Origin: Eutreptiella sp. 'Long Island Sound 2002'
Lineage: Eukaryota > Euglenozoa > Euglenophyceae > Eutreptiales > Eutreptiaceae
Length of the DNA stretch: 64,000 nucleotides
Reading direction: 5' to 3'
NCBI GenBank assembly: GCA_964036045.1
Contig: OZ038378.1
Location: 39,619,228-39,683,227, forward strand
The notes beneath the pieces were generated by a model that saw only the letters and a program-made list of their open reading frames with translations, searched no databases and had not been told where the DNA came from. Every line of letters starts with the position of its first letter. Within the stretch, counting starts at the first letter, position 1. Of this stretch, positions 1,383 to 64,000 are shown one piece after another. The translations under genes and the position numbers were made by a program.

Positions 1383-2372
1383 CGAAAGAACCAAAAGAGT
1401 GGACCCTCCAAAACGCCAACAGGTCTGATACGTTCAAAGAGCACTCCGAACACTCTCTCTCATGCATCAGTGAAATCCGCCAGAGACAAAAAGAAGACGA
1501 TCCACCGACAACAAAAATAAGCAAAGAAAAAAAAAGGGCAGCGGGTGGATCAAAAGAATGGGAGCACAACAAACACCAAGCATTGATGCACCCCTCCCAC
1601 ATGGAAGAGTACTCGAAAAACGCAATGCTTATTGTGTTGGACGGTGATAGAGTGGACCCCATCCCTCCCCATCTTGAATCTGTGCTAGGTTTAGGTACCA
1701 AATATGTGCCTTACCCGCTTGTTGCCTCATTCAGGAGCAAGAACCTTGGACCCATTGTTAATGAGTTTATTGATTTGAGGCGTCGGCCCTATTGGAGCAC
1801 CTTTTTTCACTTGATAATGCTCGATGGAGAAGTGCCACCACAATCCACTCAAATAACCAATCTGAAAACCAAGTCGGGTATGTTTCCACCTCACAAGGTT
1901 TTGGAGAGACTCGGTGGAAAATACCATACCATCAACAATTGGATTGAGAGGTATAAAGACATTGCCCTCTTGCATTTGAGTGAAGAACATGGACAAGGTC
2001 AATCACACCAGGGTACCAGACTGGCCTTCCACCTTTTCGCTGACTTCCTGAGTGACCATATCGTGTTGAGGGGTGATAAAGACGGCTCCGCCACTGTGAT
2101 GTTTGTTCAGTGCTATAAGAGGGAGATTGAAATTGACACGGACAGTGTGTTAAACGGATCGAAGGTATACCAAGAAATTGGTGACGCCAATGTAAATGAA
2201 AAATGGGAGACCAATGCTTTGTCTTGGCATCGGACGCTACAAGAGTTGGTGGTTGGGTACCCTCCTATCCTACAGATTGCCAAGGTTCGGAAAGAAGCCT
2301 TGCCTCCCATAATTCAGATTACCCGTGAAAACACACAAGTCCACGTGCCTAAAGAACCGAGGGGGTTTTGCT
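1343..2372 (+). pseudogene. PLE protein, region upstream of RT core
   Basis: This frame encodes a segment ending in LRGDKDGSATVMFV, which resembles the conserved DKG motif that precedes the RT core in Penelope proteins. It is followed by a stretch that should lead into the RT fingers. Near 2361-2371, in a G-run followed by a T-run (GAGGGGGTTTTG), the homologous reading moves to another frame, where GFASRPLVGLTRC continues the RPL-type motif. A one-base indel in the homopolymer explains this most simply. It is the central part of the same protein as the next entry. Confidence 0.6.
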
Positions 2373-3599
2373 TCGAGACCTCTGGTTGGCCTCACGCGCT
2401 GCAGCACCACAGGTACCTCATTCGTTCTTGCCGTGAAAGGCAACATTTTTTGGAAGCTCGATCGCCTACAGGATCCAATGGGAACACTGCTCTCTGACAC
2501 GGTTGATCTAATTGAACGTTTGGGTAAACTTGGTCCCCTGACCCCATTGTATGTCTGCACTACCTGCAGCTTCTCTGCACTCTACACGAATATATCCTGG
2601 GATAACATGATTTTGGCTTGTAATTTCTGGTCAAACTGGTCAAAATACCTGCCGGCGACTACACTGGTTCATCCCCCTCAAGAAGAAGGGGAACTCATGG
2701 ATCTTCTCAACAGTGGATTGGATGCACAAACATATCTGGGTTTCCGGGACTGTTTTCCTTTTTGTGATTTTGATTACGACAGGGAACGAACTGTAGGGCG
2801 CTTCCTTCTGAAAGTGATTTATAGACATTCACCTTTTCTGAATGAGGGGGTTGGCATCTACCTACAGCGCCTTGGCTGGGCGATCGGTACCAATGCAGCC
2901 CCCACTTGGGCTACCCCTGCACTACGTGCGTATGAAATCACCACTCCCCTGCGCCTGCACCCCTCCCTTTGTCCAACCCCAATTTTCTGCTTTATTGATG
3001 ATATTTGCCTGCTCCGGAAACCAGTTGAGAAAGAGAGGTTGGTGACTGCACTGCGCCAGATCTACCGTGACAATTTGAAGCTTGCGTTTGAATGTTGCAT
3101 GGGGAGAACTGGTATTCCCTTCCTGGACCTGTGCATAATTAGCCTGAACCCCTTACGCACAGGGGTGTATTTCAAGGGGACACACAGTTGCACTTACATC
3201 CCATGGTCCGCTAACCTCCCGGTGGCTACGAAAGCAGGGTGGATATCTGGTGAATGTGTCAGGTATTTGAGGATCTGCAGTGAAGAATACTTCTATCTGC
3301 TTGCATGGCGTGGACTTAGAGCAGCGCTGGCTTTGTGGGCCCCCCCCAGACGCCTGTGGCTTTCTGCACCCCCGGTCAAGTGGAGACACAAGTGCTCAGT
3401 GATGAATATCAGGAGAAATCAAATCGGCGATGAGGGAAATGAAGTCATCCCTCGGGTTGGGTTGGGCCTCTTTTTCCCAGAGGTTTTGTACTGCGTGCAC
3501 TGCATCACAGTTGCATTGCACTGTCTTGGTCTAAAATTGTTTCTCGCATTTCATCCTGTGTTCCCTACTTGCCTGGGACAAGATTTTTTGCTACAGTGA
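2360..3599 (+). pseudogene. Penelope-type reverse transcriptase
   Basis: This is the RT catalytic region of a Penelope-like element, which copies element RNA into DNA. Visible motifs in order are RPLVGLTRC (template-binding region), ALYTNISWDNM near 2578-2610, GWAIGTNAAPTWA near 2875-2912, FIDDICLL at 2991 with the catalytic aspartate pair, GIPFLDLCI near 3112 and the SANLP block followed by CVRYLRICSEEYFYLL. The ORF continues about 100 residues beyond this into a tail ending CLGQDFLLQ, without GIY and YIG motifs. This segment is open, but it is cut off from its N-terminus by the frame change near 2365, so it is called part of a pseudogene. A second copy of the tail is at 13235-13540. Confidence 0.82.
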
Positions 3600-8090: not shown

Positions 8091-8211
8091 CATGGCCTCC
8101 TCGCCGCAATGCTGCATCTCCGTGGCCTCCTTCCGGTCTCATCTTCACTGCATGGATGGACGAGTGAGCGCCCCGCAGCGACGTCCCGCACACGCAACCC
8201 ACAGCACAACA

Positions 8212-9640
8212 GACCGAGCGAGCACACCGGTGAACAGGAGCCAAGTGGCCCAGGACACCGCACACACAGGCAACGCACCAAGCGGGCACACCGGTAAACA
8301 GGAGCCAAGTGGCCCAGGACACCGCACACGCAAAACAACACACCGAGCGGGCACACCGGTGAACAGGAGCCAAGTGGCCCTGGACACCGCACACGCAACA
8401 CAACAAACCAAGCAGGCACACCGGTGAACAGGGGCCAAGTGGCCTAGGACACCGCACACGCAACACAACAAACAACGCGGGCACACCAGTGAACAGGAGC
8501 AAAGTGGCCCAGGACACCGCACACGCAAAGCAACGCACCGAGCGGGCACACTGGTGAACAGGAGCCAAGTTGTCTGGGACACCGCACAAGAGAAACAACA
8601 CACCGAGCGAGCAGACCCGTGAACGGGAGCCAAGTGGCCGAGGACACCGCACACGCAGCACAACAAACCACGCGGGCACAGCGCTGAACAGGAGCCAAGT
8701 GGCCCAGGACACCGCACACGCAAAGCAACGCACCGAGCGGGCACACCGGTGAACAGGAGCCAAGTGGCCCAGGACACCGCAGACACAGGCAACCCACCGA
8801 GCGGGCACATCGGTGAACAGGAGCCAAGTGGCCCAGGACACCGCACACGCAAAGCAACGCACCCAGCGGGAACACCGGTGAACAGGAGCCAGGTGGCCCA
8901 GGACACTGCACACACAGGCAACGCACCGAGCGGGCACACCGGTGGACAGGAGCCAAGTGGCCCAGGAGACCGCACACGCAAAGCAACGCACCGAGCGGGC
9001 ACACCGGTGAGCAGGAGCCAAGTGGCCCAGGACACCGCACACTCACTACAACACACCGAGCGGGCACACTGGTGAACAAGAGCCAAGAAGCCGAGGACAC
9101 CGCACACACACAACACAACACTCCGAGCGGGCACACCGGTGAACAGGAGCCAAGTGGCCCAGGACACCGCACAAGCAAAACAACGCACCAAGCTGGCACA
9201 CCGGTGAACAGGAGCCAAGTGGCTCAGAACACCGCACAAGCAAAACAACGCACCAAGCGGGCAGACCAGTGAACAGCAGCCAAGTGGCCCAGGACACCGC
9301 ACAAGCAAAACAACGCACCAAGCGGGCACACCGGTGAAGAGGAGCCAAGTGGCCCAGGACACCGCACACACAGGCAACACACCAAGCTGGCACACCGGTG
9401 AACAGGAGCCAAGTGGCCCAGGACACCGCACACGCAACACAACAAACCACGCGGGCACACCGGTGAACAGGAGCCAAGTGGCCCAGCACACCGCACAAGC
9501 AAAGCAACACACAGAGCGGGCACACCGGTGAACAGGAGCCAAGGGGCCCACGACACCGCATAAGCAAAACAACGCACCAAGCGGGCACACCGGTGAACAG
9601 GAGCCAACTGGCCCAGGACACCGCACACACGTGCACACGT
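8212..9640 (+). repeat. 64/65-bp minisatellite, about 22 units
   Basis: A unit of 64-65 bp repeats head to tail. Landmarks in each unit are GAACAGGAGCCAAGTGGC, CCAGGACACCGCACA, a variable CGCAA-CAACGCACC piece, and GCGGGCACACCGGTG. Successive GTGAACAGG landmarks fall at 8231, 8295 and 8360. Units differ by point changes and small indels, mostly in the CACACGCAA part. The array is open in several frames on both strands, giving long cysteine- and proline-rich readings on the minus strand; the unit has no coding signature and these are not called as genes. Confidence 0.92.
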
Positions 9641-37007: not shown

Positions 37008-37050
37008 CGGAGCCCCTGCAGCCAAGGGCCCCATCTAGGGCGGTCGCAGG
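37005..37050 (+). promoter_or_regulatory. Possible UAG readthrough site between gag and pol
   Basis: Gag stop UAG is followed by CGG in the same frame as pol, with no further stop until 41982. Seven nt after the UAG a possible stem-loop begins: CCTGC (37015-37019) pairs with GCAGG (37046-37050), and inside it GCCC (37028-37031) pairs with GGGC (37038-37041) around CATCTA. Spacing and layout resemble retroviral stop-codon readthrough signals. The ATG at 37051 is out of the pol frame. Confidence 0.6.
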
Positions 37051-40000
37051 ATGGTGACGTGGGAAGCGCCGAACCATCCCAGTCGGGAGTCGATAAGCAC
37101 AAAGGGACTGCCGCGGGCAGAAGGCCCGGTCCGGCACCCAGTCGCGGAGGCGGGGTGAGGGCAACTGAAGGCACGAACCCTTGCACCCGTCCGTCCTTCG
37201 CGACCAAGAATGTGTTTGATGTACTACAAGATCTATCCGAGAGTATCGGACGATCACCCGGACCGCAGCTGGATGCTGCAGATGGGCAGCCTGAGCCCAT
37301 TGTCCACGACCTGCACCAGTCGCTTGTTGAGCTTCTGGAACGGCCGGAGATCCTGGGCTTGCACGCCTTGCGCCAAGTTGGGCGTGAGCGGCAGTTGCAC
37401 CTTAAGGTCCGTGCCTTATGCGGGGAAGTGAAAAAGGTCTTCGACGTGTTGGTCAACACGGGAGCACAGGTCAGCTTGGTCAAGGCTGGCCTACTTCCAC
37501 CCGAGTGTTTGACCGACAGTCGGAAACCTGTCAGGCTGAAGGTGGCGAACGGCCAGTACATGGTGGGAGGCACGAAGGAAGCGGCAATCGGGCTGCAGTT
37601 CGTGAACCATCGTGAGCTGAGCCGCCCAGACCTCGGCAAGGAAATCCTCCTGCAAGGTAGCTTCTACGAGGCCGAGATGGAATGGGACATGATCGTTTGG
37701 TACGACTTCATGATGGAGACGGACTCCGGCGTCCTCCTGGCCCAGGCCTCCATGACCCTGTACCAGGACGACCGGCTCTCGTGGCTTTCGTCACCTGAGC
37801 ACCATGTGGAATGCCAATGGATCCACCCCGAACACAATCAGCTCGAAGTAGCCGCGCTGGACACTGAGCCAACTGGGGCAGCAAACAAGGAGTACGGCGT
37901 AATGCCGGAAGTGGCAAGCCGAGTGGTCGCGGACCTGGGAGCTTCGGATCTGGCCCTGGATGCGTTCTCTTCAGGAACCTCCGCCCATCTGCGGGTTTGT
38001 GAGAAGTACTGGAGCGCACAGGACTCCGCGTGGAAGAAGCACTGGGGTCCGCATCAGGGATTGATGTGGATCCATTGCCCCCGTTGGGACATTCCAAGAG
38101 CGATAGCGAAGATTCGCAAGGACCGCTCCAAGGCAGTGCTGGTTGTTCCTATGGGATGCACCGAGGAGGAGAGTACCCGACATTGGGTAGTCTCATTGAC
38201 CAACATGACCTTAAACAAGGTCGTCCTACCGGCTGGAGAGAGTGTCTATCAGGACGCTAAGGGACAGCCCATGCCACCCCAGAGATGGCCAACGGAATTC
38301 CACTATGTGGATGGGGGCCTTGATCAGGCCGACACCACGGACTTCGTCTGTGTCAACCGCATCATAGCAGAGCCATGGCGGCAATGCTTTGCGGTTCCCC
38401 CTGTTGACATCGGAGAATCGGAGGACCCCCTCACAGAAGAGGAGCTGGATCTGGTTCAGGGGTATATGGATCAGCCCTTTCACGACTGGGGTAGCCAGCG
38501 TGAGGGCAAGGGCCAGGACAGAGCCTGGTGGGAAGTGGACTCGATCGTCTCTGGTTCCTTTGATGGGAACACCTTCGTGCAGAGGGTGCTGGACCACCTA
38601 TCCAGCCAGGACGAGTCAATCGGGGGTAACCCACCCACCTACGGCGATCTGTTCCGAGGCAAGACCAGAGATGGCCCTTTGTGCCACCTGGGGAGACCAC
38701 CTGAGCCGAAACCGAGCGGGGTCGCTACCCCTCAAGTAAGCTCAGTGGTCCAGGTGCCCGGAAAAGCCAAGGCGGAGTCCGATGATTGCCCCAAGATCCA
38801 GGCGTTGAGGGCCAGGCTGAAGCCGAAGTATGGTGAAACCTTCTTCAGCGGTAAGCCTGTGTTTCCCCCACCGGTGCGTGGACCGTATGGCGAGGCCAAG
38901 ATACGACTGAAGCAGGACCCCCGTGTGTATCGATGCCAGGAGTGTGCCCTGAGGGGCGAGAGGAAAGAGGCCATGGAGAAGATCCTCCGTGACTTCATCG
39001 AGAGAGGCTGGCTTGAGCCGTGCCACTCTGAGTGGGCCTCTCCGTGCTTCGTCGTCCCGGAGAAGGTGGCCGGTGAATGGCGGCTCGTGGTCGACTACCG
39101 CGGCCTAAACGCCCAAACGCAGCACGACAGCTATACGCTGCCCCTCATGGAGGACATGCTGCGAAAACAACACCGGCGGAGGATCTTGACGGTGATTGAC
39201 CTGAAACATGGTTATCATCAGATGCCTCTCGCCGAGGAGTCCCGTGCCTGCACAGCCATGAGCACCCCACTTGGACCTCTCCAGTGGAAGGTGATGCCCA
39301 TGGGCGTTACCAACGGCAATGCGGCTTTTCAGCGGATGCTGGAGAACCTGCTTGAGTTGGTGCGTGACTGTGCGGACCCCTTCGTGGACGACGTCATCAT
39401 CGCGTCCGGGGACCCCAGTATGAGCTACGAGGAGCTCCTGGAGGCACATGAGAGGGACGTCACTCGAGTGCTGGACCTTCTGGTTCGGCACAAACTCACG
39501 GGCAGCAGTGACAAGGCCACCATTGCGGTAAGCGAGGTGGTCTTCGCTGGCCACGTAGTTGGGAACGGGCAGCGAAAGCCCATACCTGGCAAGGTGGCTG
39601 CGATTGAGCACTGGGAAAAGCCCAAGACGGTCTCTGACCTACAGGCGTATCTAGGGTTCTGCAACTACTACTCGGGGTATATCAAGATGTATGCCGAGTA
39701 TGCAGCCCCCATGACGACCATGCTCAAGGGCAACCGAGAGGAGACCAAGAAGGGGTCCAAGAAGGCTCTGGTCTGGACTGCTGACTCCGACCGAGCCTTT
39801 GAGGGGATGAAGCAGGCGCTGCTATCCGCAGTGGGTCTGCACCTCGTGGATCCCGACCGAGGGTTCGTCCTGCGCACCGACGCTTCCGACTACACCGTTG
39901 GCGCTGTGTTGGAGCAAGTGCTTGACGATGGGAGGCACGTGCCCGTGGCCTTCTGGAGCCGAGTCCTGGCGGAAGGCCAGAGACGGACGTGGACGCCCCG

Positions 40001-41984
40001 TGAAAAGGAGGCGTATGCCATCGTCATGGCTCTCAGGAAATGGGCTGGGTACATAGCCCTCCATCCCGTCACCGTCTGCACCGACCATCAGAGTCTGCAG
40101 TCGTGGCACAAGGAGCACGTTGACACCCCCTCAGGTCCCGCCTCCCGACAGGGAAGATGGCATGAGACCTTGGCCAACCTCGACCTCACAGTTGTGTATA
40201 TTCCTGGAAAGGATAACACCGTGGCGGACTGTCTCAGCAGGTGGGCCTATCCCGCCAGCAAGGGCATGACGGATATCTCTGCCCATGGCGATGAGGCTGA
40301 GACCGCTGAAGCCAAGAAGATCATCGAAATGGAGCGCCTGATGGAGGAGGAGGGTGTAAAATGCTTCGTCGTCATGGCTGCGGATGCCCCCCTCGGAACG
40401 AGGATGGGCAGAGCGGTCAGAGTACTCGCCCCTGAGAGAGCTGAGTCCGACAAGTACCTCTTCCCGGAGTCTTTGCTCCAGGACGACTGGACGGACGATT
40501 ACACCAGGTCTGAGGCCTTTGCGGCCGAGTATAGGGCTGTGACCGACCCTGACGACGGGCAGAAGTGGCCAAAGGGGCTGACTGAGGAAGATGGCAAGGT
40601 CTACCGAAATGGTAAGCTGCTAGTACCGGAGTCCCGGGTGCTCGAGCTTTGTGAAGCTTGGCACCACCACATGCTGCACCCAGGGGTCAAGAAGCAAGCC
40701 CTTGACATGCAGCGCCGGTTCGAGATCGACGACATCGTTCTCTACACCGCCATCAAGAAGGTCAGGAAGGGTTGCTCGGTCTGCCAGGCCTGCAATCCCA
40801 ACAACCGGAACGTCAAGGGGGAAGCCCAATGGACCCCGGTTCCTGACCAGCCCATGGAGAGCGTGGCCATGGATGTTTTCTCCATGCCCGAAGTGCACAT
40901 GGGCAAGGAGACCTTTGAGTGTGTGGTTCTTTGTGTGGACCGCCACAGCGGCTACGTAGTAGCCGTTCCGGCACGCAAAAAGGGGTTGCTTGCCAAGGAA
41001 GTGGCAGTCATGATGATTCGTCATTGGCTGACCGTCTTTGACATCCCCCGCACCATTTGCAGTGACCGAGGGCCCCAGTTTACTGGTGGCTGGTTCAAGG
41101 CTATGTGTTCCCTTATGGGAAGACGCCATGCCAAGAGTGTCGCCTATCTCAGCCGGTCTAACGGCCGGGCTGAAGACGCTGGACGGCAGCTGTTCCAGAA
41201 GCTGCGCAGTATTCACATCACCAATCCGCGTCGGAACTGGTTTGAGGAGATGTGGCCTGCTCTGAAGGCCCATCATGACACCCCCACGCCGGGTGGTTCG
41301 TCACCTCACCAGATTCTGTTCGGCAGGGACCCCCTCGGTCGGGGACTTCCCTTGTCTGGTGATGGCATGGCCATGGATGCCAAAGAATTCTTCGCGCGGC
41401 AGGAGCAAACGGCGCGGGACATCCGCCAGCAGCTCGAGAAGGAGCATGCTGAGCGTCAGAAGTCCGCCCCGAGCTCGACAGCGCAGAAGTTCAGGGTGGG
41501 AGACCCGGTGTGGGTGATCAGACCCCGCCCTATGGGCACCCACCGCACCAAAACTTGGTTCACACCTTGGGAGGTGGTTCGCAGGATTGGTGAGGACACC
41601 TACCGCATCAAGGTAGGTCACGGACAGTTCTGGGAGCGCCACGAGAGTCAACTCCGTGTGCGGGAACCCGACCTCCGTGGCCAGCATGTGTCCCTGAGCT
41701 ACGCCGCACATGAGGCTGATTCGGACAACGATTATGATGGGCAGGATGACTATACAGTCGAGAAGATCCTGGCCCAGCGTCCGAACGCCTCGGCACCCGG
41801 AGGCCTGGAGTTCAAGGTTCGTTGGCGAGGCTACGGGCCGTTCCACGACACCTGGGAACCCGTCTCCTGGTTCGTGCCGCGGGTCAATACTCCCTTCATG
41901 GAGTACATCCGCAAGCACAAGTCCAAGATCCATGTCTCGGACTTGGCAGCACTCACCCGGGCGATTGCAGCCAGGGGTGCCTGA
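37008..41984 (+). CDS. pol: Chromovirus Pol: protease-RT-RNase H-integrase-chromodomain
   Basis: The frame is open from directly after gag UAG; the first GTG in frame is 37059 and no ATG lies nearby. Protease: VLVNTGAQVSLV at about 37446-37481, where the catalytic Asp of D-T/S-G is Asn (AAC at 37455). RT: WRLVVDYRGLN near 39078 and FVDD at 39381-39392. RNase H: RTDASDY near 39874, PREKEAY, CTDHQSL, NTVADCLSRW. Integrase: HHMLHPGV then CSVCQAC (HHCC zinc site, 40660-40790), MDVFSMP, CSDRGPQF near 41058 and NGRAED near 41161 (DDE triad). Chromodomain 41751-41883 with YTVEKIL, FKVRWRGYG and DTWEPVSWF supplies the aromatic cage positions, and would guide integration to particular chromatin. Length is normal for a chromovirus Pol. 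The Asn in the protease probably makes this copy defective. Confidence 0.93.
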   Translation, partial: RSPCSQGPHLGRSQDGDVGSAEPSQSGVDKHKGTAAGRRPGPAPSRGGGVRATEGTNPCTRPSFATKNVFDVLQDLSESIGRSPGPQLDAADGQPEPIVHDLHQSLVELLERPEILGLHALRQVGRERQLHLKVRALCGEVKKVFDVLVNTGAQVSLVKAGLLPPECLTDSRKPVRLKVANGQYMVGGTKEAAIGLQFVNHRELSRPDLGKEILLQGSFYEAEMEWDMIVWYDFMMETDSGVLLAQASMTLYQDDRLSWLSSPEHHVECQWIHPEHNQLEVAALDTEPTGAANKEYGVMPEVASRVVADLGASDLALDAFSSGTSAHLRVCEKYWSAQDSAWKKHWGPHQGLMWIHCPRWDIPRAIAKIRKDRSKAVLVVPMGCTEEESTRHWVVSLTNMTLNKVVLPAGESVYQDAKGQPMPPQRWPTEFHYVDGGLDQADTTDFVCVNRIIAEPWRQCFAVPPVDIGESEDPLTEEELDLVQGYMDQPFHDWGSQREGKGQDRAWWEVDSIVSGSFDGNTFVQRVLDHLSSQDESIGGNPPTYGDLFRGKTRDGPLCHLGRPPEPKPSGVATPQVSSVVQVPGKAKAESDDCPKIQALRARLKPKYGETFFSGKPVFPPPVRGPYGEAKIRLKQDPRVYRCQECALRGERKEAMEKILRDFIERGWLEPCHSEWASPCFVVPEKVAGEWRLVVDYRGLNAQTQHDSYTLPLMEDMLRKQHRRRILTVIDLKHGYHQMPLAEESRACTAMSTPLGPLQWKVMPMGVTNGNAAFQRMLENLLELVRDCADPFVDDVIIASGDPSMSYEELLEAHERDVTRVLDLLVRHKLTGSSDKATIAVSEVVFAGHVVGNGQRKPIPGKVAAIEHWEKPKTVSDLQAYLGFCNYYSGYIKMYAEYAAPMTTMLKGNREETKKGSKKALVWTADSDRAFEGMKQALLSAVGLHLVDPDRGFVLRTDASDYTVGAVLEQVLDDGRHVPVAFWSRVLAEGQRRTWTPREKEAYAIVMALRKWAGYIALHPVTVCTDHQSLQSWHKEHVDTPSGPASRQGRWHETLANLDLTVVYIPGKDNTVADCLSRWAYPASKGMTDISAHGDEAETAEAKKIIEMERLMEEEGVKCFVVMAADAPLGTRMGRAVRVLAPERAESDKYLFPESLLQDDWTDDYTRSEAFAAEYRAVTDPDDGQKWPKGLTEEDGKVYRNGKLLVPESRVLELCEAWHHHMLHPGVKKQALDMQRRFEIDDIVLYTAIKKVRKGCSVCQACNPNNRNVKGEAQWTPVPDQPMESVAMDVFSMPEVHMGKETFECVVLCVDRHSGYVVAVPARKKGLLAKEVAVMMIRHWLTVFDIPRTICSDRGPQFTGGWFKAMCSLMGRRHAKSVAYLSRSNGRAEDAGRQLFQKLRSIHITNPRRNWFEEMWPALKAHHDTPTPGGSSPHQILFGRDPLGRGLPLSGDGMAMDAKEFFARQEQTARDIRQQLEKEHAERQKSAPSSTAQKFRVGDPVWVIRPRPMGTHRTKTWFTPWEVVRRIGEDTYRIKVGHGQFWERHESQLRVREPDLRGQHVSLSYAAHEADSDNDYDGQDDYTVEKILAQRPNASAPGGLEFKVRWRGYGPFHDTWEPVSWFVPRVNTPFMEYIRKHKSKIHVSDLAALTRAIAARGA

Positions 41985-55044: not shown

Positions 55045-55869
55045 TCAGCCTTGAGGTGGGGGTGCTTCTTCCAGCACTGATCCACCAGGTGGCCTATCCT
55101 TTTGCAATGGGAGCATTCCTTTGGGCGAACCTGTGCTCTTCGGCGTCAGGTTTCCTGGTCCTGTTTCTGAATAGGGCTTGCCGGGTTGAAAAATCAACCG
55201 CTTTCGGAGGTGTGGGTGTTTTTTCCAACAATTCTCCTCCCTATGCCCAGGAAAACCACAAAAAGGACATTTAGGCCCTTTCTTGGGGACCGGTTGTCCT
55301 ATGGCATTCACATACCATTCATCCCACTCATCAGGTGGTTCCAAAACCTGGGCATTGTTCGCGTTAGGCGGAGCCTCGGATTCCCCGATCGCATTCACCT
55401 GTTCCTCCACGGGCTCGACACCCATGAAATTCAAAGACGCCACGTTGGGGCGCTTATTCAAGGGCAACAGTCGCCATTTCTGGTGATCCTGATGACACTT
55501 GACAGCGTCCTTCTGTCTAGGTTCCACTTGGCAGAAAAAGTAGAACGTGAGGTAGGTGAATTCAAGCCCTCCCGACTTGTTCTCCTCATTAACAAGTTTA
55601 TAAACGAGGCCGTCATGGTGGACCAAAGCGTCCAAGAATCTTTGTCGGGCATGACCAAATGTAACCCCCTCTCGTACTTGACTCCCCCAGTAAATGAAAT
55701 CCTCCATGAAGTTGGAGAGCTCACCTACCGAAAAGTTCTTAGGAACAGTTAGCCCATGGAAAACATGGTCGGGGACATTTTTGTTCACCCGGCGGTTGAC
55801 TTCCCGCAAAACACCCTCTTTTACTTGGGCGTAACTCAGGTTCCTACGGATCATCACTTTCTGAGTGTC

Positions 55870-55871
<2 letters not shown>
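55045..55871 (-). pseudogene. gag: Gag with CCHC zinc knuckle, N-terminus cut
   Basis: RNA-binding structural protein fragment. The N-terminal part (NLSYAQVKEGVLREVN, ELSNFMEDFIYWGSQVREG) is helical like a gag core. A knuckle of spacing C-x2-C-x4-H-x4-C (CPFCGFPGHREENC) is at 55228-55269, and a proline-rich tail follows. The frame is open upstream into the T-tract (as AAA codons), so it has no natural start: coding was severed at 55872 when the T-tract and LINE sequence arrived. Confidence 0.75.

Positions 55872-55901
<30 letters not shown>
55872..55901. repeat. 30-bp T tract at the gypsy/LINE junction
   Basis: Thirty consecutive T between the minus-strand gag and the 5' end of the plus-strand LINE. 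On the minus strand it is a poly(A). It may be the tail of a minus-oriented retroposon, an insertion artefact, or target sequence. Confidence 0.9.
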
Positions 55902-56098: not shown

Positions 56099-58810
56099 AT
56101 GAATTTCACCCTATTTGGAAGCTCCAAAGCCGCCGATGATGGCCTTTCAACGCTATTCAACTATTCTCCGTCACACCTCTTTCAAAAACACCAAGCCTCA
56201 AATTCGCCGTTGCAAACACGCTTTCCGTCACGCCAACTTGAAGCCATTGAAGGCAAAATATTTGACACACGCCAACGCATTTTCGTTCCCGAAGTCTACC
56301 GCCGACTACAAGACTACTCCGAGTTTTACCTGGATGTGGAAGGCACCGATATTCAATCCGCCTTCGTTGGGAGCAACTCCACGGAAATTCTAGATCGAGG
56401 TAGGGTCTCTTCCGTTGCGCACAATAACTACAACGAGCTCGAAAAGCTTTTGTTCAAGCACAAGCGTTTCTACCTAAAGCCGTATGAGTTGGACTATTCC
56501 CAAGCCGAAGCCAAGGAGTCTCCACCCACCGCCACCCCGTGGGCTAAACAATTAAGAACCGTGCTAGATAAAGCCAAAGAAGAGAACAAAGACCTCAAAG
56601 GATGGTTCGTTATTCCGGCGTGGGACGCTCAAGTGGTTGCCGCCACCTTTCGCATGCTAGGCTCAACTTCCGCCCTTTTTCCTCTTCTTCCGTACATTTC
56701 TAGCGTGATATGTATGCACGGGGCGCAACTCCGGGACGCCTACAAGGTACAAAGGGACGGCAAAGACTCCTACGAGTTCCGCACGAGCGGCCATCAAACG
56801 ATGCCGTATGTTGCCTTGCTCCTAAACACCTCTTCCTTTGACGGGTGCCGATATGAAGACATCAATTTTAAGTTTGAACCTTTCCGCTTCGCCGCCAAGC
56901 ACGCCCATCCAACGGTGCGAGACCTCCGGTTGCACAAAACACTACGTTTTGAGGTGAGCATAGAATTCCTTGATCACATTGATCCTTCGCCGCCGGAAGA
57001 GAGAGATAAAACTAAACCAAGGCAACGCAAAATTGGAGACGCCCGTGCTTTCATGAAGTTAATGAACGAAATGTTTGTCCCCGCGCTAGCAAACGTATCG
57101 GTGAACACCAAAAATGCCTACTACCCGTTTGGCCACATAGTCCCTTCCGAGAGCCCGCATTGGGCCTACTACCGGTTTGATTGGGAACTCCCATCTCGCT
57201 TTGCCGACGAGCTCATGTTTAAGGTCCGAGAGTGCGCCCAATTCCTCACCGGAGAACTCCTTGCAATGGACATGCACGCTTTGCCGACTACCGAAGTGTA
57301 TCGAGCCGTGATCGCTAGGGACCGAAAGGAAAGAAACAAAGACCTACAAGCTCCGGAAATGCTCACCATGATGATCGCCAACCTGCCCGGTGGACGGGGC
57401 GCCTCACCGCCCCTAGGAGCGATGTTCCGGTCTAAAGATTCCTTGGTCGTGGCGATTGACACCACTCACGCGCCGTGCGACGTCATGAAGACCGGTGTCC
57501 AAACGTTAGCTATCCGCTTCTTCCACTCATGCGGCATTGTCCTCTTTCATGGCATAGATGGGCAATTAGTGCGGTTCTCGTCACGATCCGACGGCAACGC
57601 GAGGTCCGCGCCTTCGGGCGCCCCCGAGCGAGCCCACGCGACGCCGGCCCCGCCCTCATACGACTCATCTAAGGCCCCGAAGACCGCCGTGCTCCTAGTG
57701 GCCCCAAGATCGGCGCACGCTCTCGACTTGCGCGTCCAAGCGGGGTTTCTTGGCCCGTACGTGTCGTTCGAGCCCACGAGGCCTCCCTACGAACACCAAC
57801 AAGCCTACCTCGTGGTCTACGAAAAGGGGGAATCCGCGCTGCTAGCGCATGATTTCAAATATGGAGACGCTGCCTTTGCCCCACTACACCGCAACCTCAT
57901 CGCCCTCGAGAAGATCCTCCCCGCTCAAGACCCGGATGTGGCCGAGCACGAGCAACCCATAGTGCAGCGCCTCCAAGCGGGAGCCGCCTTGGGGTCCACG
58001 GCCTTCGTGTCCCAACTTGTCACCGCCCTTCGTGAAAGGCCCGCTACGGGGCTAACTGAGCGCATCAGCGAGTGGAACGCGGCACCGGAGGACGCCGGCG
58101 CCGCTACGCCAACGCCGGGACCAAGCCGCATCGAAGAGATGTCCGAGACCAGCGTCCCGCTGCTTGCTCCACTAGGAGGCGAGGCGACCACCCTCCTACC
58201 CCCCGACCACGGTGCCCCCACCCCCGCCTCGGATATTCAAATCGACCCCCGCCTCCCCGCTGGTTTTTATTACGTCCGCGACGTATTCTCCGAAAGCCAA
58301 GAGGAAACGGTAAAAAAGATTCTCCACGACAACACGTGGGAGAAGTACCACGGGCGCTCAGTCCAACACTTCGGCCACGCATACCTCGGCCCGAGCAAAG
58401 TCGCCGCCACGTCCCCCATCCCGGAAGAGTTTTCCTCCATCCTCCAAACCTACATTGCCGCGCTGGAGCGGCTAGGCCTCTCACATCCTCCTCCCAACCA
58501 AATCACGGGCACAATGTATCTCCCGGGAGAGGGCATCGGCTACCACGGGGACGACCCCTTGCTAGGCGACCCAGTGTCCATTTTTGGTTCCCAATCGGAC
58601 ACCACAATGTTCTTTAAGAACCCCTCCAACGGGGACTCCTTTCGCATCCGCCTGTTTGCCCGCTCTCTCCTGGTCCTCACGGGGGCCGCACGCCATGAGT
58701 GGCACCACGGTATACCTCGACGGAGAGAAGACGAAGTGTTTGGGCTAACCGTCCCTCGTACCGTCCCTCGCCTCGCTCTAATCCTCCGACACATACCACA
58801 GGCAAGCTAA
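56099..58810 (+). CDS. LINE ORF1 protein with C-terminal AlkB domain (903 aa)
   Basis: The ATG at 56099 is the likely start; the frame is open back to 55865, but that part reads through the T tract as poly-Phe. The first 530 or so residues have no domain I recognise (FSQ/FDTRQRIFVPEVYRRL-type sequence, then long mixed alpha/beta stretches). A low-complexity Ala/Pro linker (about 510-545) is followed by a second unknown segment (about 550-640) and another Ala/Pro-rich linker. Residues 720-903 form an AlkB-type dioxygenase. No RRM or zinc knuckle, the usual LINE ORF1 features, is visible. By position the protein should bind element RNA or assist ORF2. It stops at TAA 58808-58810, about 90 bp before the ORF2 frame opens. 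Confidence 0.85.
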   Translation: MNFTLFGSSKAADDGLSTLFNYSPSHLFQKHQASNSPLQTRFPSRQLEAIEGKIFDTRQRIFVPEVYRRLQDYSEFYLDVEGTDIQSAFVGSNSTEILDRGRVSSVAHNNYNELEKLLFKHKRFYLKPYELDYSQAEAKESPPTATPWAKQLRTVLDKAKEENKDLKGWFVIPAWDAQVVAATFRMLGSTSALFPLLPYISSVICMHGAQLRDAYKVQRDGKDSYEFRTSGHQTMPYVALLLNTSSFDGCRYEDINFKFEPFRFAAKHAHPTVRDLRLHKTLRFEVSIEFLDHIDPSPPEERDKTKPRQRKIGDARAFMKLMNEMFVPALANVSVNTKNAYYPFGHIVPSESPHWAYYRFDWELPSRFADELMFKVRECAQFLTGELLAMDMHALPTTEVYRAVIARDRKERNKDLQAPEMLTMMIANLPGGRGASPPLGAMFRSKDSLVVAIDTTHAPCDVMKTGVQTLAIRFFHSCGIVLFHGIDGQLVRFSSRSDGNARSAPSGAPERAHATPAPPSYDSSKAPKTAVLLVAPRSAHALDLRVQAGFLGPYVSFEPTRPPYEHQQAYLVVYEKGESALLAHDFKYGDAAFAPLHRNLIALEKILPAQDPDVAEHEQPIVQRLQAGAALGSTAFVSQLVTALRERPATGLTERISEWNAAPEDAGAATPTPGPSRIEEMSETSVPLLAPLGGEATTLLPPDHGAPTPASDIQIDPRLPAGFYYVRDVFSESQEETVKKILHDNTWEKYHGRSVQHFGHAYLGPSKVAATSPIPEEFSSILQTYIAALERLGLSHPPPNQITGTMYLPGEGIGYHGDDPLLGDPVSIFGSQSDTTMFFKNPSNGDSFRIRLFARSLLVLTGAARHEWHHGIPRRREDEVFGLTVPRTVPRLALILRHIPQAS
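58258..58807 (+). other. AlkB-like 2-oxoglutarate/Fe(II) dioxygenase domain
   Basis: Oxidative demethylase fold that removes N-alkyl lesions such as 1-methyladenine and 3-methylcytosine from nucleic acid. Visible in order (ORF1 numbering from the ATG at 56099): AGFYYVRDVFSESQEE entry helix; NQITGTMYLPGEGIGYHGDD with iron ligands H816 and D818 (CAC at 58544, GAC at 58550); LLVLTGAARHEWHHGIP with iron ligand H870; and RLALILR with R891 and R897 in the R-x5-R spacing that binds 2-oxoglutarate. All catalytic positions are present, so activity is plausible. Substrate is unknown; element RNA or cDNA is an inference. Confidence 0.87.
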
Positions 58811-58895
58811 CCCACGAAAGCCAGAGGGCCGGGTACCCGCCTCCTGCACTGTCCAGCCCCCTCTACCTGAACACAAAAGGGCCAAGATTCAGTGA
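58811..58895 (+). other. Spacer between LINE ORF1 and ORF2
   Basis: Short gap from the ORF1 stop to the last stop in the ORF2 frame (TGA 58893-58895). No ATG in the ORF2 frame follows before the endonuclease domain, so how ORF2 is started is unclear. Confidence 0.6.
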
Positions 58896-61800
58896 ACCAC
58901 CGGCCCAGTCACGGCTTCCACCATCACAGGCAAGGGGCTAGACGACGAGCTCACCTCGGCCGGGATACCGGCCGACCAAATTCAGCACTTTCTTTGCCTT
59001 AGCCAGCCCAGCCAGCCCGGCTCCCCAGTGCCCCCCCAGCCCCCCCCTATCCCGCCCCCCCCGAGATCCAAAACGCGCCTACGGAAGGGCTACCAACGGC
59101 CTCACCGCCCCCCCATACCCCTCCCTTCAGAACTGCGTTTTCTATCCCACAACTTGCAGAAGAAACCCATAGTGAGCAGCCAAATTCTCCGACACCTCAA
59201 GAACGACTTCGACATCCTCTTCCTCCAAGAAATCAATCACGCCCCCATCCTCCCCCACGTATACGCCTACGGTTCGGGCACTAAAGCCACCATCGTTTCG
59301 AATATCAGCCAAGACAAACACTCCAGAGGCGAGCATGGTTCCGTCTTGGTCTGTTCCCCCCGGCTCTCCCGCTTCGTTACCCCCCTTCCCCGACTAGATA
59401 CAGAAGGGATGCTGGCGGCAGCCGTTCTCACTCTCCCGGGGGCCCCGCCCACCTTGCTGGTCTCGGTATACGCCCCAAGCACGGACGTCCACCGCTCAAA
59501 AATTGAAAACATCCTACGGCCACTCATGCATCAGTATCCTAACCACGTCCTCGGTGGGGACACCAATTGCATAATGTGCCCTGAACTAGACGGATCGAAC
59601 CTCCAAACGGACAACGAATGGCCGTGGCTTCGCAGACAGATCACGAGCGACCCGCCGCGCCTCATCGATACCTTTCGGCACTTTCACCCGACCGAGCGGT
59701 CCTTCTCCCGATACCCCACCCCGTACAGGGCAAGCAGTAGCCGCCTTGACCATATTTTGCTCTCCCCGGCGGCCTCGGAATTTTTTGCCCCCACCTCTGC
59801 AACCATCCAAACCGACGACAAAACGTCAGACCACCACCCAGTCACGTACACCTCTCAAGTCCCCCCTCACCCTTTTACCGAAGCTCCCACAACTAAGAGG
59901 AAAGTTTTCCGAAAACTGACGGAGCGGGAACGCTCCAAGCACCACGACTCCCTTGCCCCCCTGGCGCGGTGGTGCGAGTCTACCCTCCCCCGCTTTGAGT
60001 CCTTGTCCTCGGCGGACATCGAGCTTTTCACAGACGTCGTGCTGGAGGAAGTGGCGACCAGCTACCACAGTATCACCACGCCGTCACGCCCTACCTCCTC
60101 GGCTCTGGTAAAGAAAATCAAAGAGTCCCTGCAAACCCTGCCCCCCCCCAGCCATCCCAACTACCCCGCTTCCATGGACACGCTCAACAAACTCGTCAAG
60201 GAGTGGGAAACCAAAGTGAACAAGGCCGCAACCACCAAAATCCATCGGTGCCTGGTGAGGAAAACTAGGATCAAACGCACCATCAACGAGGCGCTCAACC
60301 CCGTGGAACGAGGTGAAATAACGCTGAAGCGCCCGGGCACCACACAGCTCGTCTCCACCCCCAAAGAAGTGGGCTCTATTTTCTCTTCTACACTCCTCAC
60401 CCTGGGGGGCAGCCTCGAATACGCACCGCCGAACACTCTAGTGGATCGCCTACTCGCACACTCCCCCGCCTGCCCCGAACCCACAAAACACGGCCTCCTC
60501 CCTGACATTACCTGGGAATCGTTACGCAACACGCTTAAGAGGTCCAAGCCCAACAAGGCGGGGGGGCGGGACTTCACAAACAACTACACTTTGCACGTCT
60601 CCCCCCCCCCTATCCAACAATTCATTTGGAAGGTATGCAACTACTACCTCCACCGGCCGTTGCCCGAGAAATGGCTCGAAGCCAACATTATCTTGCTTTT
60701 TAAGAAAGGGGACGTGATGAACCCGGTAAATTACAGGCCTATAGCCTTGCTGAACAGCGTTTACAAAATAATTGCAACACACGCCAACCGAGAGCTACTG
60801 GCAGCGGCCATTGAACATTCCATCATACACCCCACCCAGTTCGGCGGGCTTCCGAACCGCAGATGCCAGGACCACATTTTCAACCTCTTATCCACGTTTC
60901 GGGAATCGGTCGGTAGCTACAGCCTCTACATTGATTTCAATAAGGCTTTTAACTCCGTCCCCCACACCACCCTCTTCACAGTTCTATCCCGCCTGAACTT
61001 TCCTACGCCCCTTGTAAACCTCATTCAATCCTTGTACCGTGCCCCTCGCGACTTCCCAGTGGTGTCAGGTCAAACCCACTCCTCACACCTGCAAACCAGA
61101 GGCGTTCGGCAAGGATGCCCCATGTCACCAATCCTTTTCTGCCTCTACCTGAATGTGCTCCTCTTCGCCTTGCCGTCCCACGTCACTGCACCCCCCTCCC
61201 CACACGAATCGGGCCACGCCTTTGTTGACGACCTCCTCTATCGATCAGAGAATGGGGACCGCATACAGCAAGTTTTAAACTTCTTCGACACGGTCGCCAG
61301 GGAGTGGGGTCTAGACCTTAACCTCAGCAAAACCGAGATCCACGCTATGGGAACAGCTCCCCCCAGAACCTTCACCTCCCCCTCGGGCACCCCCCTGTCG
61401 ACAACAAACCAAAAGACGGGGCAACCACACAATTGCTACAAATACCTAGGGGTATACATCTTCACCGCCAACCATGAGGCACAAACACTGGCATTGGCCA
61501 AGTCGGAAATACGCTCATTTTTCACAACCCTCCAACCCCTCCAGCTCACCCTTTCGGAATACATTCTCTTGGTGAACGTCCAACTCATCCCCATTCTTTC
61601 CTACCGCCTCATGGCACACCCCCTGGCCCTGAACGAGTTGGGGGCCCTACAGGCCATGATCTGGCAAAATGTTGCGCATGACCCCTCCCCGGACAGAGCC
61701 AACAGGATCTCCCGCCTCGTCTCCCCTAAGGCCCGCTACACCCCTCGCCACCAGGGAGGCTTAGGACTCCGCCACTTCACTTTTTCAATTTGCATGGCCC

Positions 61801-63941
61801 TGGTAAACACCGCAATAAGGTACCTCAACGGAGACGGCCCGGCCTCGACAAACGAATCTTTTTCCGAAGCAATGCTCTCCACCACACGCAACCCAATCCA
61901 AGACACCATCATGGACGCATGCCACGCCATAGGCTTCCGATACCACAGCACCGGCCTCTGGGCCTCCTGCCCCCCCTCCCTTTTCCTCCCAAAAGAAAAA
62001 GTCCAGGTCCGGTTCCTAGCCACCAAGCCGGCACCACAATACAGCAAGTTCGGCAACAGATTAAAACGGACGCCCCAGGACCTGGGGTTCCACCTAGGTA
62101 CAGTCACGGAAGTGCACTCAGAATCGGCCACACTCCAGTTTTCGGACGGCACCACCCACACCATCAAAAACCCCGGTCTCCGCCGCAACGAGAAAGAATA
62201 CACCTTTCAAAACCCAGCCATTACTGTCCTCCCTCAACTGGCGGGGCGCCACGAACTGCTCACCCCCCCCCTTCTTCACCCTCAAGAATACATCCTCAAC
62301 CCCCCCCCCGGGCCATACGGCGGGGTCCTACTCGACTCGTCACTGCATGGCGAGCTGTACCGGCTCCCAGATGAACCTCACTCCCTTGACCCCGACGACC
62401 TCGAAGAATGGGGTTGTGAAGCAGCCCTTGCCCTCCTCCTCGCATCGTCCCCCGGCACGACATGGGTGTACTTGGATGGCTCAGCGGGCGCCTTGGGCTA
62501 CGGATCGGCGGCCACCCTGTTTTTTCCAAATGGCTCCAGATGGGTACTGTGCCAAACGTCCCCGTACCAGTCATCAGAGGGGTCGGAGTTCTGGGCCGCT
62601 ATTATGTTCCTACGGTGGGCCCTTGCATCTCACCCGCACCTCACCTTCGCCGTGCTAGGGGACAACCTCCACGTTATCACTGTTCTCTCTCCGAACACCC
62701 CCCCAGGCCTCCCATCACGCTCGCCAGCCGGCACGTGGGAATCCTCTCTCCAGTCCATTCAGGCCTCCCTACGCCCAGGGATGATCCAGGGTTGGGGGTG
62801 GATCAAGGGGCACGCCGGGTTCGTGGGGAATGAAATCTCAGATGCTTACTCAAAGTGGGCCGCCCACGTGATGGTCTGGGACCCCTCCCTCCTTCCCCCC
62901 CCCCCGATAGGGTGCATATCCAGGGGCCCCCTCCCAGTCATACACAAATTGACTACAACCTCAATCAAGCATCTCCTCCCTCGCCACGAACACGAAAACA
63001 TCCACGCACCGTCCAGCTTCCATTTTTACAATCACACTTCGTGGTTCAAAGGCCTCCCTTTCAAATGGTCCTCCGGAAATTTCAACATGGCGCCATTTGC
63101 TTTCCACGACGACTTGCGCCCTCGCCATTGCCACGCTTGCCCCGACCCGCACCCGATGGATGTTATCTCTTTCGTCTCACACTGCCCAACGTGCGAACAC
63201 CTGGTCCAATCCTACATTCAATGCTGGCGCCCCCCCTTCACCACGGTGGTGTCCCAATGGTGGTCCGCGACCACACACGTGGGGGAGAGACGCAATTTCG
63301 TCCGGGGGCTTGTTCCCATGACGCTGTACACCAAACTCACAACCCCCCCCTCCGGCCGAAGAAAACCAGCACACTGTCACGACTTAAAACTCGCCCTGAA
63401 GGATCGTGTTCCCCTGCTCCTCAGCGCCCTATACCGCACGCTGGAATGGCTAAAAGACCACCCCCCCCCAGCCCCGCTCACCCCCCCTACGGGCCCCAAC
63501 TCATGGGGACGCCCCTGGTCGCCCTACAGCACGTCGCACACCGCCCAACAACGCCCCCCCCCCGCCTACCACCCTCCCCCCCCCCTCCCGGACAAAGTCG
63601 CACACAAGCCCCCAAAACGCCCCCGCCCCCCATCTCCTGCGGCACACACCAAAACTCGAAAACACGGCCGCCAGCCCCCAAGGCCCGTCCGGCCTCTATC
63701 ACTGAAACGCGGTACCGCAAGTCAACCCCAGCCAGAGCCTCCGCCCCCCAAACGGCCGCTCACAATCAGGGACATGTTCAACCTCCCCCCCCCCCCTAGA
63801 CCAGCACCCCCCCTCGCCGCCTCCGCCCCCATTTCCGCCCCTTCTCCTCGCATAACAAGGTACTTCGCACCAGCCCCCCCCTCCCCCGCGAGTACAAACT
63901 CACAATCGTCCTCACACTCGTCCAACGTGTCATCTCTTTGA
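58896..63941 (+). CDS. LINE ORF2: endonuclease, RT, RNase H
   Basis: Enzyme for target-primed reverse transcription. Endonuclease: FLSHN near 59142, LFLQEIN near 59220, VSVYAPS, GGDTN (usually GGDFN), SRLDHILLS and SDHHPV near 59828. RT: NYRPIALLNSVYKI near 60729, LYIDFNKAFNSV, GVRQGCPMSPILF near 61102, and FVDD at 61221-61232 (FADD or YADD is usual). RNase H: YLDGSAG (Asp at 62475), SSEGSEFWAA, LGDNLHV, GHAGFVGNEISDAY. Then CHAC-PDPHP and HCPTCEH (63126-63200), a Cys/His motif like those at LINE ORF2 ends, and a proline-rich tail with TIRDMFNLP and ITRYFAP. No in-frame ATG precedes the endonuclease: GTG 59028 is the first near-start, and the open frame reaches 58896. Confidence 0.92.
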   Translation, partial: TTGPVTASTITGKGLDDELTSAGIPADQIQHFLCLSQPSQPGSPVPPQPPPIPPPPRSKTRLRKGYQRPHRPPIPLPSELRFLSHNLQKKPIVSSQILRHLKNDFDILFLQEINHAPILPHVYAYGSGTKATIVSNISQDKHSRGEHGSVLVCSPRLSRFVTPLPRLDTEGMLAAAVLTLPGAPPTLLVSVYAPSTDVHRSKIENILRPLMHQYPNHVLGGDTNCIMCPELDGSNLQTDNEWPWLRRQITSDPPRLIDTFRHFHPTERSFSRYPTPYRASSSRLDHILLSPAASEFFAPTSATIQTDDKTSDHHPVTYTSQVPPHPFTEAPTTKRKVFRKLTERERSKHHDSLAPLARWCESTLPRFESLSSADIELFTDVVLEEVATSYHSITTPSRPTSSALVKKIKESLQTLPPPSHPNYPASMDTLNKLVKEWETKVNKAATTKIHRCLVRKTRIKRTINEALNPVERGEITLKRPGTTQLVSTPKEVGSIFSSTLLTLGGSLEYAPPNTLVDRLLAHSPACPEPTKHGLLPDITWESLRNTLKRSKPNKAGGRDFTNNYTLHVSPPPIQQFIWKVCNYYLHRPLPEKWLEANIILLFKKGDVMNPVNYRPIALLNSVYKIIATHANRELLAAAIEHSIIHPTQFGGLPNRRCQDHIFNLLSTFRESVGSYSLYIDFNKAFNSVPHTTLFTVLSRLNFPTPLVNLIQSLYRAPRDFPVVSGQTHSSHLQTRGVRQGCPMSPILFCLYLNVLLFALPSHVTAPPSPHESGHAFVDDLLYRSENGDRIQQVLNFFDTVAREWGLDLNLSKTEIHAMGTAPPRTFTSPSGTPLSTTNQKTGQPHNCYKYLGVYIFTANHEAQTLALAKSEIRSFFTTLQPLQLTLSEYILLVNVQLIPILSYRLMAHPLALNELGALQAMIWQNVAHDPSPDRANRISRLVSPKARYTPRHQGGLGLRHFTFSICMALVNTAIRYLNGDGPASTNESFSEAMLSTTRNPIQDTIMDACHAIGFRYHSTGLWASCPPSLFLPKEKVQVRFLATKPAPQYSKFGNRLKRTPQDLGFHLGTVTEVHSESATLQFSDGTTHTIKNPGLRRNEKEYTFQNPAITVLPQLAGRHELLTPPLLHPQEYILNPPPGPYGGVLLDSSLHGELYRLPDEPHSLDPDDLEEWGCEAALALLLASSPGTTWVYLDGSAGALGYGSAATLFFPNGSRWVLCQTSPYQSSEGSEFWAAIMFLRWALASHPHLTFAVLGDNLHVITVLSPNTPPGLPSRSPAGTWESSLQSIQASLRPGMIQGWGWIKGHAGFVGNEISDAYSKWAAHVMVWDPSLLPPPPIGCISRGPLPVIHKLTTTSIKHLLPRHEHENIHAPSSFHFYNHTSWFKGLPFKWSSGNFNMAPFAFHDDLRPRHCHACPDPHPMDVISFVSHCPTCEHLVQSYIQCWRPPFTTVVSQWWSATTHVGERRNFVRGLVPMTLYTKLTTPPSGRRKPAHCHDLKLALKDRVPLLLSALYRTLEWLKDHPPPAPLTPPTGPNSWGRPWSPYSTSHTAQQRPPPAYHPPPPLPDKVAHKPPKRPRPPSPAAHTKTRKHGRQPPRPVRPLSLKRGTASQPQPEPPPPKRPLTIRDMFNLPPPPRPAPPLAASAPISAPSPRITRYFAPAPPSPASTNSQSSSHSSNVSSL

Positions 63942-64000
63942 AAAAGCCACACTTACACATTTTCTCACGCCGACCCTCGGCAGCCCTAGCGGCGCGATCA

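Follow-up and report, generated by a model that had tools for sequence, protein, structure and literature searches.

An open frame at position 56,099 of the window, which is the complete 64,000-nt stretch of DNA analyzed here, has the features of a LINE ORF1 and ends in a sequence reminiscent of an AlkB-type demethylase. This raises the question of whether a LINE may encode its own oxidative dioxygenase within the protein that is presumed to package its RNA, and on which molecules such an enzyme would act.

The element and its surroundings

ORF1 (56099..58810, plus strand) starts with an ATG at 56099, continues without interruption for 903 amino acid residues, and ends with the stop codon at 58808-58810; its reading frame is already open from 55865, upstream of the ATG. 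After a spacing of 85 bases, it is followed by ORF2 (58896..63941, plus strand), an open frame of 1681 codons. Encoded by ORF2, also on the plus strand, are an APE-type endonuclease domain (59145..59834; PF03372, E 1.1e-8), a reverse transcriptase domain (60705..61457; PF00078, E 8e-32), and an RNase H-like domain with a weak match (62460..62858; PF00075, E 1.1e-4, 22.8 bits and thus below the cut-off of 25.8). Among solved structures, the nearest relative was human LINE-1 ORF2p (E 1.8e-19). Because of these domains and of the proximity to LINE-1 ORF2p, the element is an APE-type LINE, composed of ORF1 and an APE/RT/RNase H ORF2 with both frames open. The window ends at position 64000, 59 bases past ORF2, so that the 3' end of the LINE lies beyond it.

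The first ATG of ORF2, at 59409, is codon 172 and falls within the endonuclease domain; there is no earlier in-frame ATG, and no ATG in any frame between the ORF1 stop and position 59334. A simple frameshift from ORF1 into ORF2 was ruled out by the stop codons at 58893 in the ORF2 frame and at 58808 and 58868 in the ORF1 frame. Translation of ORF2 may use a non-AUG start codon or reinitiation instead.

The putative 5' end of the LINE (55854..55901, plus strand) consists of TCACTTTCTGAGTGTCTA, followed by a T tract at 55872-55901. The translation of this stretch, HFLSVYFF or SLSECLFF, also precedes the ORF1 sequence in the relatives P0003, P0004, P0011, and P0021, upstream of which the sequences differ. 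Here and below, P-numbers designate representatives of protein clusters, and sequence comparisons cover the representatives only. Alternatively, the common stretch could be a shared short target. The tract is a run of 30 T, that of the relatives being seemingly much shorter as judged from translations, and it is abutted on the minus strand by a frame that resembles a CCHC gag by eye. In the gene model of P0004, a Helitron-helicase-like sequence, again recognized by eye, leads into the 5' end of this LINE family; gene prediction probably read through an insertion here.

Other parts of the window contain further repetitive or mobile sequences. A 65-base tandem repeat with a higher-order period of 259 is present in about 22 copies at 8206-9630, with long open frames on the minus strand, and a frame at 2313-3599 (plus strand) resembles a Penelope-like reverse transcriptase by eye, with no Pfam match at E up to 0.1. 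Within the Ty3/gypsy pol of a chromodomain element (37008-41984), a weak Pfam match to Dam, the DNA N6-adenine methyltransferase, is positioned upstream of the reverse transcriptase at 37833-38387 on the plus strand (E 8e-4, with 19.5 bits compared to a cut-off of 28.1). If this match is real, a DNA-methylase-like domain would reside in a retrotransposon near the AlkB-bearing LINE. Rfam and tRNA scans of the 64,000-nt window gave no match.

The C-terminal domain of ORF1

The sequence-only reading had proposed an AlkB-type domain fused into the LINE ORF1 and had set an empty profile search beforehand as the result that would speak against it. Residues 716-903 (58244..58807, plus strand) matched PF13532 (2OG-FeII_Oxy_2) with 33.6 bits for the domain alone, compared to a cut-off of 31.2, and with 30.5 bits for the whole ORF1. 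This was the sole Pfam match in ORF1 at E up to 1; NCBIfam gave no match for the domain. The observation was confirmed by sequence matches in the PDB, the best of which were human ALKBH8, human ALKBH6, and Ofd2 of S. pombe, and by a domain model predicted by AlphaFold2, in which the AlkB double-stranded beta-helix fold was recovered. The top fold matches of the model again comprised these three proteins, and the DNA-acting AlkB members ALKBH2, E. coli AlkB, and NMAD-1 were matched as well. A chance motif was ruled out by these profile, sequence, and fold matches.

All catalytic residues named in the initial reading are present. H816-x-D818 (58544..58552) and the distal H870 (58706..58708) are the predicted Fe(II) ligands, and R891-x5-R897 (58769..58789) is the predicted 2-oxoglutarate-binding motif, all on the plus strand. 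They are invariant in the five of five rows of A5, a domain profile that includes the window, P0005, and P0039. AlkB-type dioxygenases usually, but not universally, possess an N-x-Y pair that stabilizes 2-oxoglutarate. In the domain, the tyrosine is present as Y807 and the Asn position is occupied by T in the window and P0005 or by A in the distant rows. Ofd2 has a Q at this position in the alignment, yet its structure was solved with 2-oxoglutarate bound. By sequence and predicted fold, the C-terminal domain of ORF1 is a catalytically equipped AlkB-type Fe(II)/2-oxoglutarate dioxygenase.

The position of the domain among the AlkB subfamilies was evaluated by ranking AlkB proteins with solved structures, to which this comparison is limited, against A5. 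ALKBH8 (3.5e-19), Ofd2 (6e-15), and ALKBH6 (1e-12) were at the top, followed at a lower level by ALKBH2 (2e-7), NMAD-1 (6e-5), ALKBH7 (8e-5), and ALKBH3 (2e-4). The m6A eraser ALKBH5 (E 0.036) scored no better than an unrelated antibody chain (0.019), and ALKBH9/10 had no entry there. The canonical repair enzymes for m1A and m3C, AlkB and ALKBH2/3, carry an acidic residue 4 positions after the first iron ligand, for instance D135 in E. coli AlkB. At this position, A5 contains P in four of its five rows and G in P0039, with an acidic residue in none, and ALKBH6 likewise possesses Pro in the alignment with the profile. Because ALKBH5 is far and the +4 position is Pro or Gly, the domain does not stand out as either an m6A eraser or an m1A/m3C repair enzyme. 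The initial interpretation was thus correct in its assignment of a real, catalytically equipped AlkB domain to ORF1, but its suggestion that the enzyme counters m6A marks of the host received no special support, since ALKBH8, Ofd2, and ALKBH6 are nearest.

The remaining part of ORF1, residues 1-715 (56099..58243, plus strand), contains no known domain. It had no match in Pfam and nothing convincing in the PDB profile search (best E 0.24), and AlphaFold2 produced no usable model for residues 1-660 (pLDDT 33). None of the features of LINE ORF1 types I to IV, which are RRM plus CCHC, coiled coil plus RRM plus CTD, PHD, and esterase, was recognized by Pfam in ORF1. A divergent RRM or coiled coil in the N-terminal part is possible.

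Retention of the domain in related ORF1 proteins

Searching for proteins of whole-ORF1 length, scored over the domain, yielded 10 protein clusters. The representatives of the near clusters P0003 (163 member sequences) and P0005 (121) carry the AlkB domain. Over its first 640 residues, ORF1 is 100% identical to P0003 after rounding, with a few residues that differ, and because P0003 represents 163 sequences, the LINE family is multi-copy and young and was probably active recently, as judged from these proteins. When the N-terminal part was used as the query, one distant relative appeared, P0022, with 24% identity. A profile of the window ORF1 and P0022 led to a second ORF1 lineage with P0023 (113 members), P0031 (79), P0041 (50), and more, and to a third, P0039, which is 53% identical to P0022. 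In an alignment of 16 sequences, nine distant proteins, known here from their ORF1 proteins alone, were 23 to 26% identical to the window ORF1. Near and distant lineages probably occur in one genome, as suggested by the identical length of the longest contig (2,587,095) given for P0014 (near) and P0059 (distant).

PF13532 was found at the ORF1 C terminus in 8 of 10 distant proteins scanned, six of them above the cut-off (31.6 to 44.7 bits). The scores of P0005, P0023, and P0041 were 38.0, 41.5, and 44.7 bits, respectively, compared to the cut-off of 31.2. Among all 17 relatives scanned, five remained below the cut-off (P0007, P0008, P0009, P0031 with 25.9, and P0039 with 28.0 bits) and four had no match (P0012, P0022, P0024, and P0026); P0024 and P0026 break off early within the AlkB domain.

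Evaluation of the retention needs to consider how far the relatives extend. The C-terminal end of ORF1 is reached by 14 of 58, eight near and six distant, and all 14 retain H, D, H, R, and R. The other 44 fall short: two of them slightly (P0025 and P0031), whereas eight stop within the domain and 34 ahead of it. P0025 retains the three iron ligands but not the arginines, which lie past its end, and H870 and R897 are lost in P0031, which represents 79 sequences. The expectation that other copies keep the catalytic residues was thus borne out by every relative that extends to the C-terminal end of ORF1, but most relatives are too short, and P0031 has lost two residues. Two rows of the forced alignment, P0051 and P0054, were distrusted because they had no match to the C-terminal part of ORF1.

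Five of the 34 breaks before the domain are no more than about 20 residues from its start (P0012, P0014, P0016, P0028, and P0029). P0012, P0014, and P0016 end in a C-rich region around residue 700, and the sequence of P0012 can be seen to carry on there in a different frame; P0028 and P0029, which end near the domain start, belong to the distant lineage. Overall, the break points are scattered, as expected for decayed or truncated gene models. The early ends of these five sequences were taken for decay and not for LINE copies without an AlkB domain; a domain-free ORF1 subfamily is possible.

Retention carries little weight as evidence within one lineage, where young intact copies are similar in any case, and more between lineages. 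Comparison of the window with P0023 gave 34.8% identity for the domain and 16.5, 28.3, 18.0, and 22.5% for the other four blocks of ORF1. A second alignment gave 35% for the domain and 25 to 33% for the short linker (residues 601-715), the linker of P0039 having 33% (15/46) and thus coming close to the domain. Of the 182 columns shared, 45 are invariant, and these contain all five catalytic residues (hypergeometric P 8e-4). These comparisons suggest that selection for its activity has maintained the domain, which probably has a working role in the element because distantly related elements retain it as well. The simplest reading, drawn without a tree, would be that it joined ORF1 once, before the lineages split; two captures of an AlkB at the same place in ORF1 are less likely. 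A tblastn search with the domain gave no match in phage records, and pattern-led searches for close relatives, from which remote AlkBs would escape, returned 3 plus 85 stretches in viral contigs and 88 in prokaryote contigs, none of which was confirmed.

Possible function and comparison with known mobile elements

An active dioxygenase that acts on the RNA of the element is the reading to which we assign a reasonably good probability. A passage in PMC3905857 describes LINE ORF1 proteins as presumed to package the RNA of their element, and by analogy, the ORF1 protein would bind the element RNA. Fusion to this protein would keep the AlkB domain seated on the RNA, where it may oxidatively strip alkyl groups, either damage or marks placed by the host, from RNA bases inside the ribonucleoprotein. 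The marks or lesions removed would be those that stop reverse transcriptase or attract host control, so that the element RNA might stay readable by reverse transcriptase, hidden from host control, or both. The effects of m6A on retrotransposons are opposite in sign according to a passage of PMC9289625, in which this mark promotes LINE-1 and suppresses ONSEN.

An active dioxygenase may instead modify host molecules, such as the wobble uridine of tRNA in the manner of ALKBH8, another host RNA, or a protein, and tune translation or defense in favor of the element. ALKBH8 as the best match of A5, followed by Ofd2 and ALKBH6, and the missing acidic residue at +4 would agree with this, but the ranking is limited to AlkBs with solved structures and the fusion to a presumed binder of its own RNA favors a target within the element, which makes a host target rather unlikely. 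It is less probable still that the domain acts on DNA, repairing alkylation damage in cDNA or target DNA in the course of target-primed reverse transcription, or removing 6mA from new copies. The fold matches do include the DNA-acting ALKBH2, E. coli AlkB, and NMAD-1; however, a fold is silent on the substrate, and ALKBH2 and NMAD-1 are weaker by sequence than ALKBH8, ALKBH6, and Ofd2. A non-catalytic module for nucleic acid binding or structure would explain the replaced Asn of the N-x-Y pair and the losses in P0031 as representative of a large cluster, but it is improbable to a slightly higher degree, because the five catalytic residues are present in all 14 near and distant relatives extending to the end of ORF1, and Ofd2, solved with 2-oxoglutarate, also lacks this Asn. 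An accidental origin of the fusion, from a fragment of a host gene lying next to or within a single copy or from faulty assembly, is contradicted by the multi-copy relatives, the single uninterrupted frame, and the same order of parts in several near and distant ORF1 families, and it can be practically dismissed.

By carrying its own AlkB, this LINE makes it testable, through inactivation of one residue, whether RNA modification or RNA alkylation damage limits retrotransposons. The element would add an enzymatic type to the classification of LINE ORF1 proteins and offer an RNA-bound dioxygenase whose specificity could be explored. A far-reaching proposal, to which we give somewhat less than an even chance, is that of a new LINE ORF1 class whose RNA-packaging protein doubles as an RNA-modifying enzyme. 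Its AlkB would have been captured from the ALKBH8/ALKBH6 side independently of the orchid elements described below and kept through a deep LINE radiation, where it would rid the RNA of its own element of damage or marks and might act on a substrate novel for an AlkB.

Passages in PMC4120745 and PMC3905857 sort LINE ORF1 proteins into five types, with type IV containing an esterase; the five types as named in the passage of PMC4120745 include no AlkB. Type IV is similar in that an enzyme domain is part of ORF1, but this domain is an esterase and not a dioxygenase. A literature search on AlkB or 2-oxoglutarate dioxygenases together with retrotransposons, LINEs, non-LTR elements, and ORF1 found no LINE-encoded AlkB, which is weak evidence of absence with most subscription papers and Repbase outside its scope. 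Several related publications treat the action of host AlkBs on LINE-1; the pertinent passage in PMC6015446 concerns host ALKBH1. The earlier statement that an AlkB is not known as a standard LINE ORF1 module agrees with this search, but there is a precedent in another kind of retrotransposon, the Ty3/gypsy elements of orchids (PMC9289625).

Human ALKBH8, human ALKBH6, and S. pombe Ofd2, the best sequence matches, differ from the LINE domain in being cellular proteins of another architecture, ALKBH8 with an RRM, that are not encoded by a transposon. Among parasites that replicate via RNA, plant viruses of the Alpha- and Betaflexiviridae and Closteroviridae carry an AlkB for which genome repair has been postulated, as cited in a passage of PMC9289625; they are likened to the LINE by description alone. 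The closest parallel is drawn from that publication's account of Phalaenopsis, where Ty3/gypsy elements encode an AlkB-type dioxygenase with HxD...H and Rx5R, for which RNA binding and m6A demethylation in vitro are reported. The orchid enzyme belongs to an LTR element, is encoded by a separate ALKBH5-like ORF2, is nested within the Arabidopsis ALKBH5 homologues, keeps both N and Y of the 2-oxoglutarate pair, and is described there as a recent acquisition. In contrast, the domain described here resides in a LINE, is fused to ORF1, is nearest to ALKBH8, Ofd2, and ALKBH6, has the N replaced, and is common to ORF1 lineages with 23 to 26% identity. Retention of the active site across such lineages would mean that the activity matters to the element in the long term, which a recent capture of the orchid type could not show. 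A mobile element with its own AlkB is of a known kind; what is new, as far as seen, is the location in a LINE ORF1, together with the AlkB subfamily and how deeply the domain has been retained.
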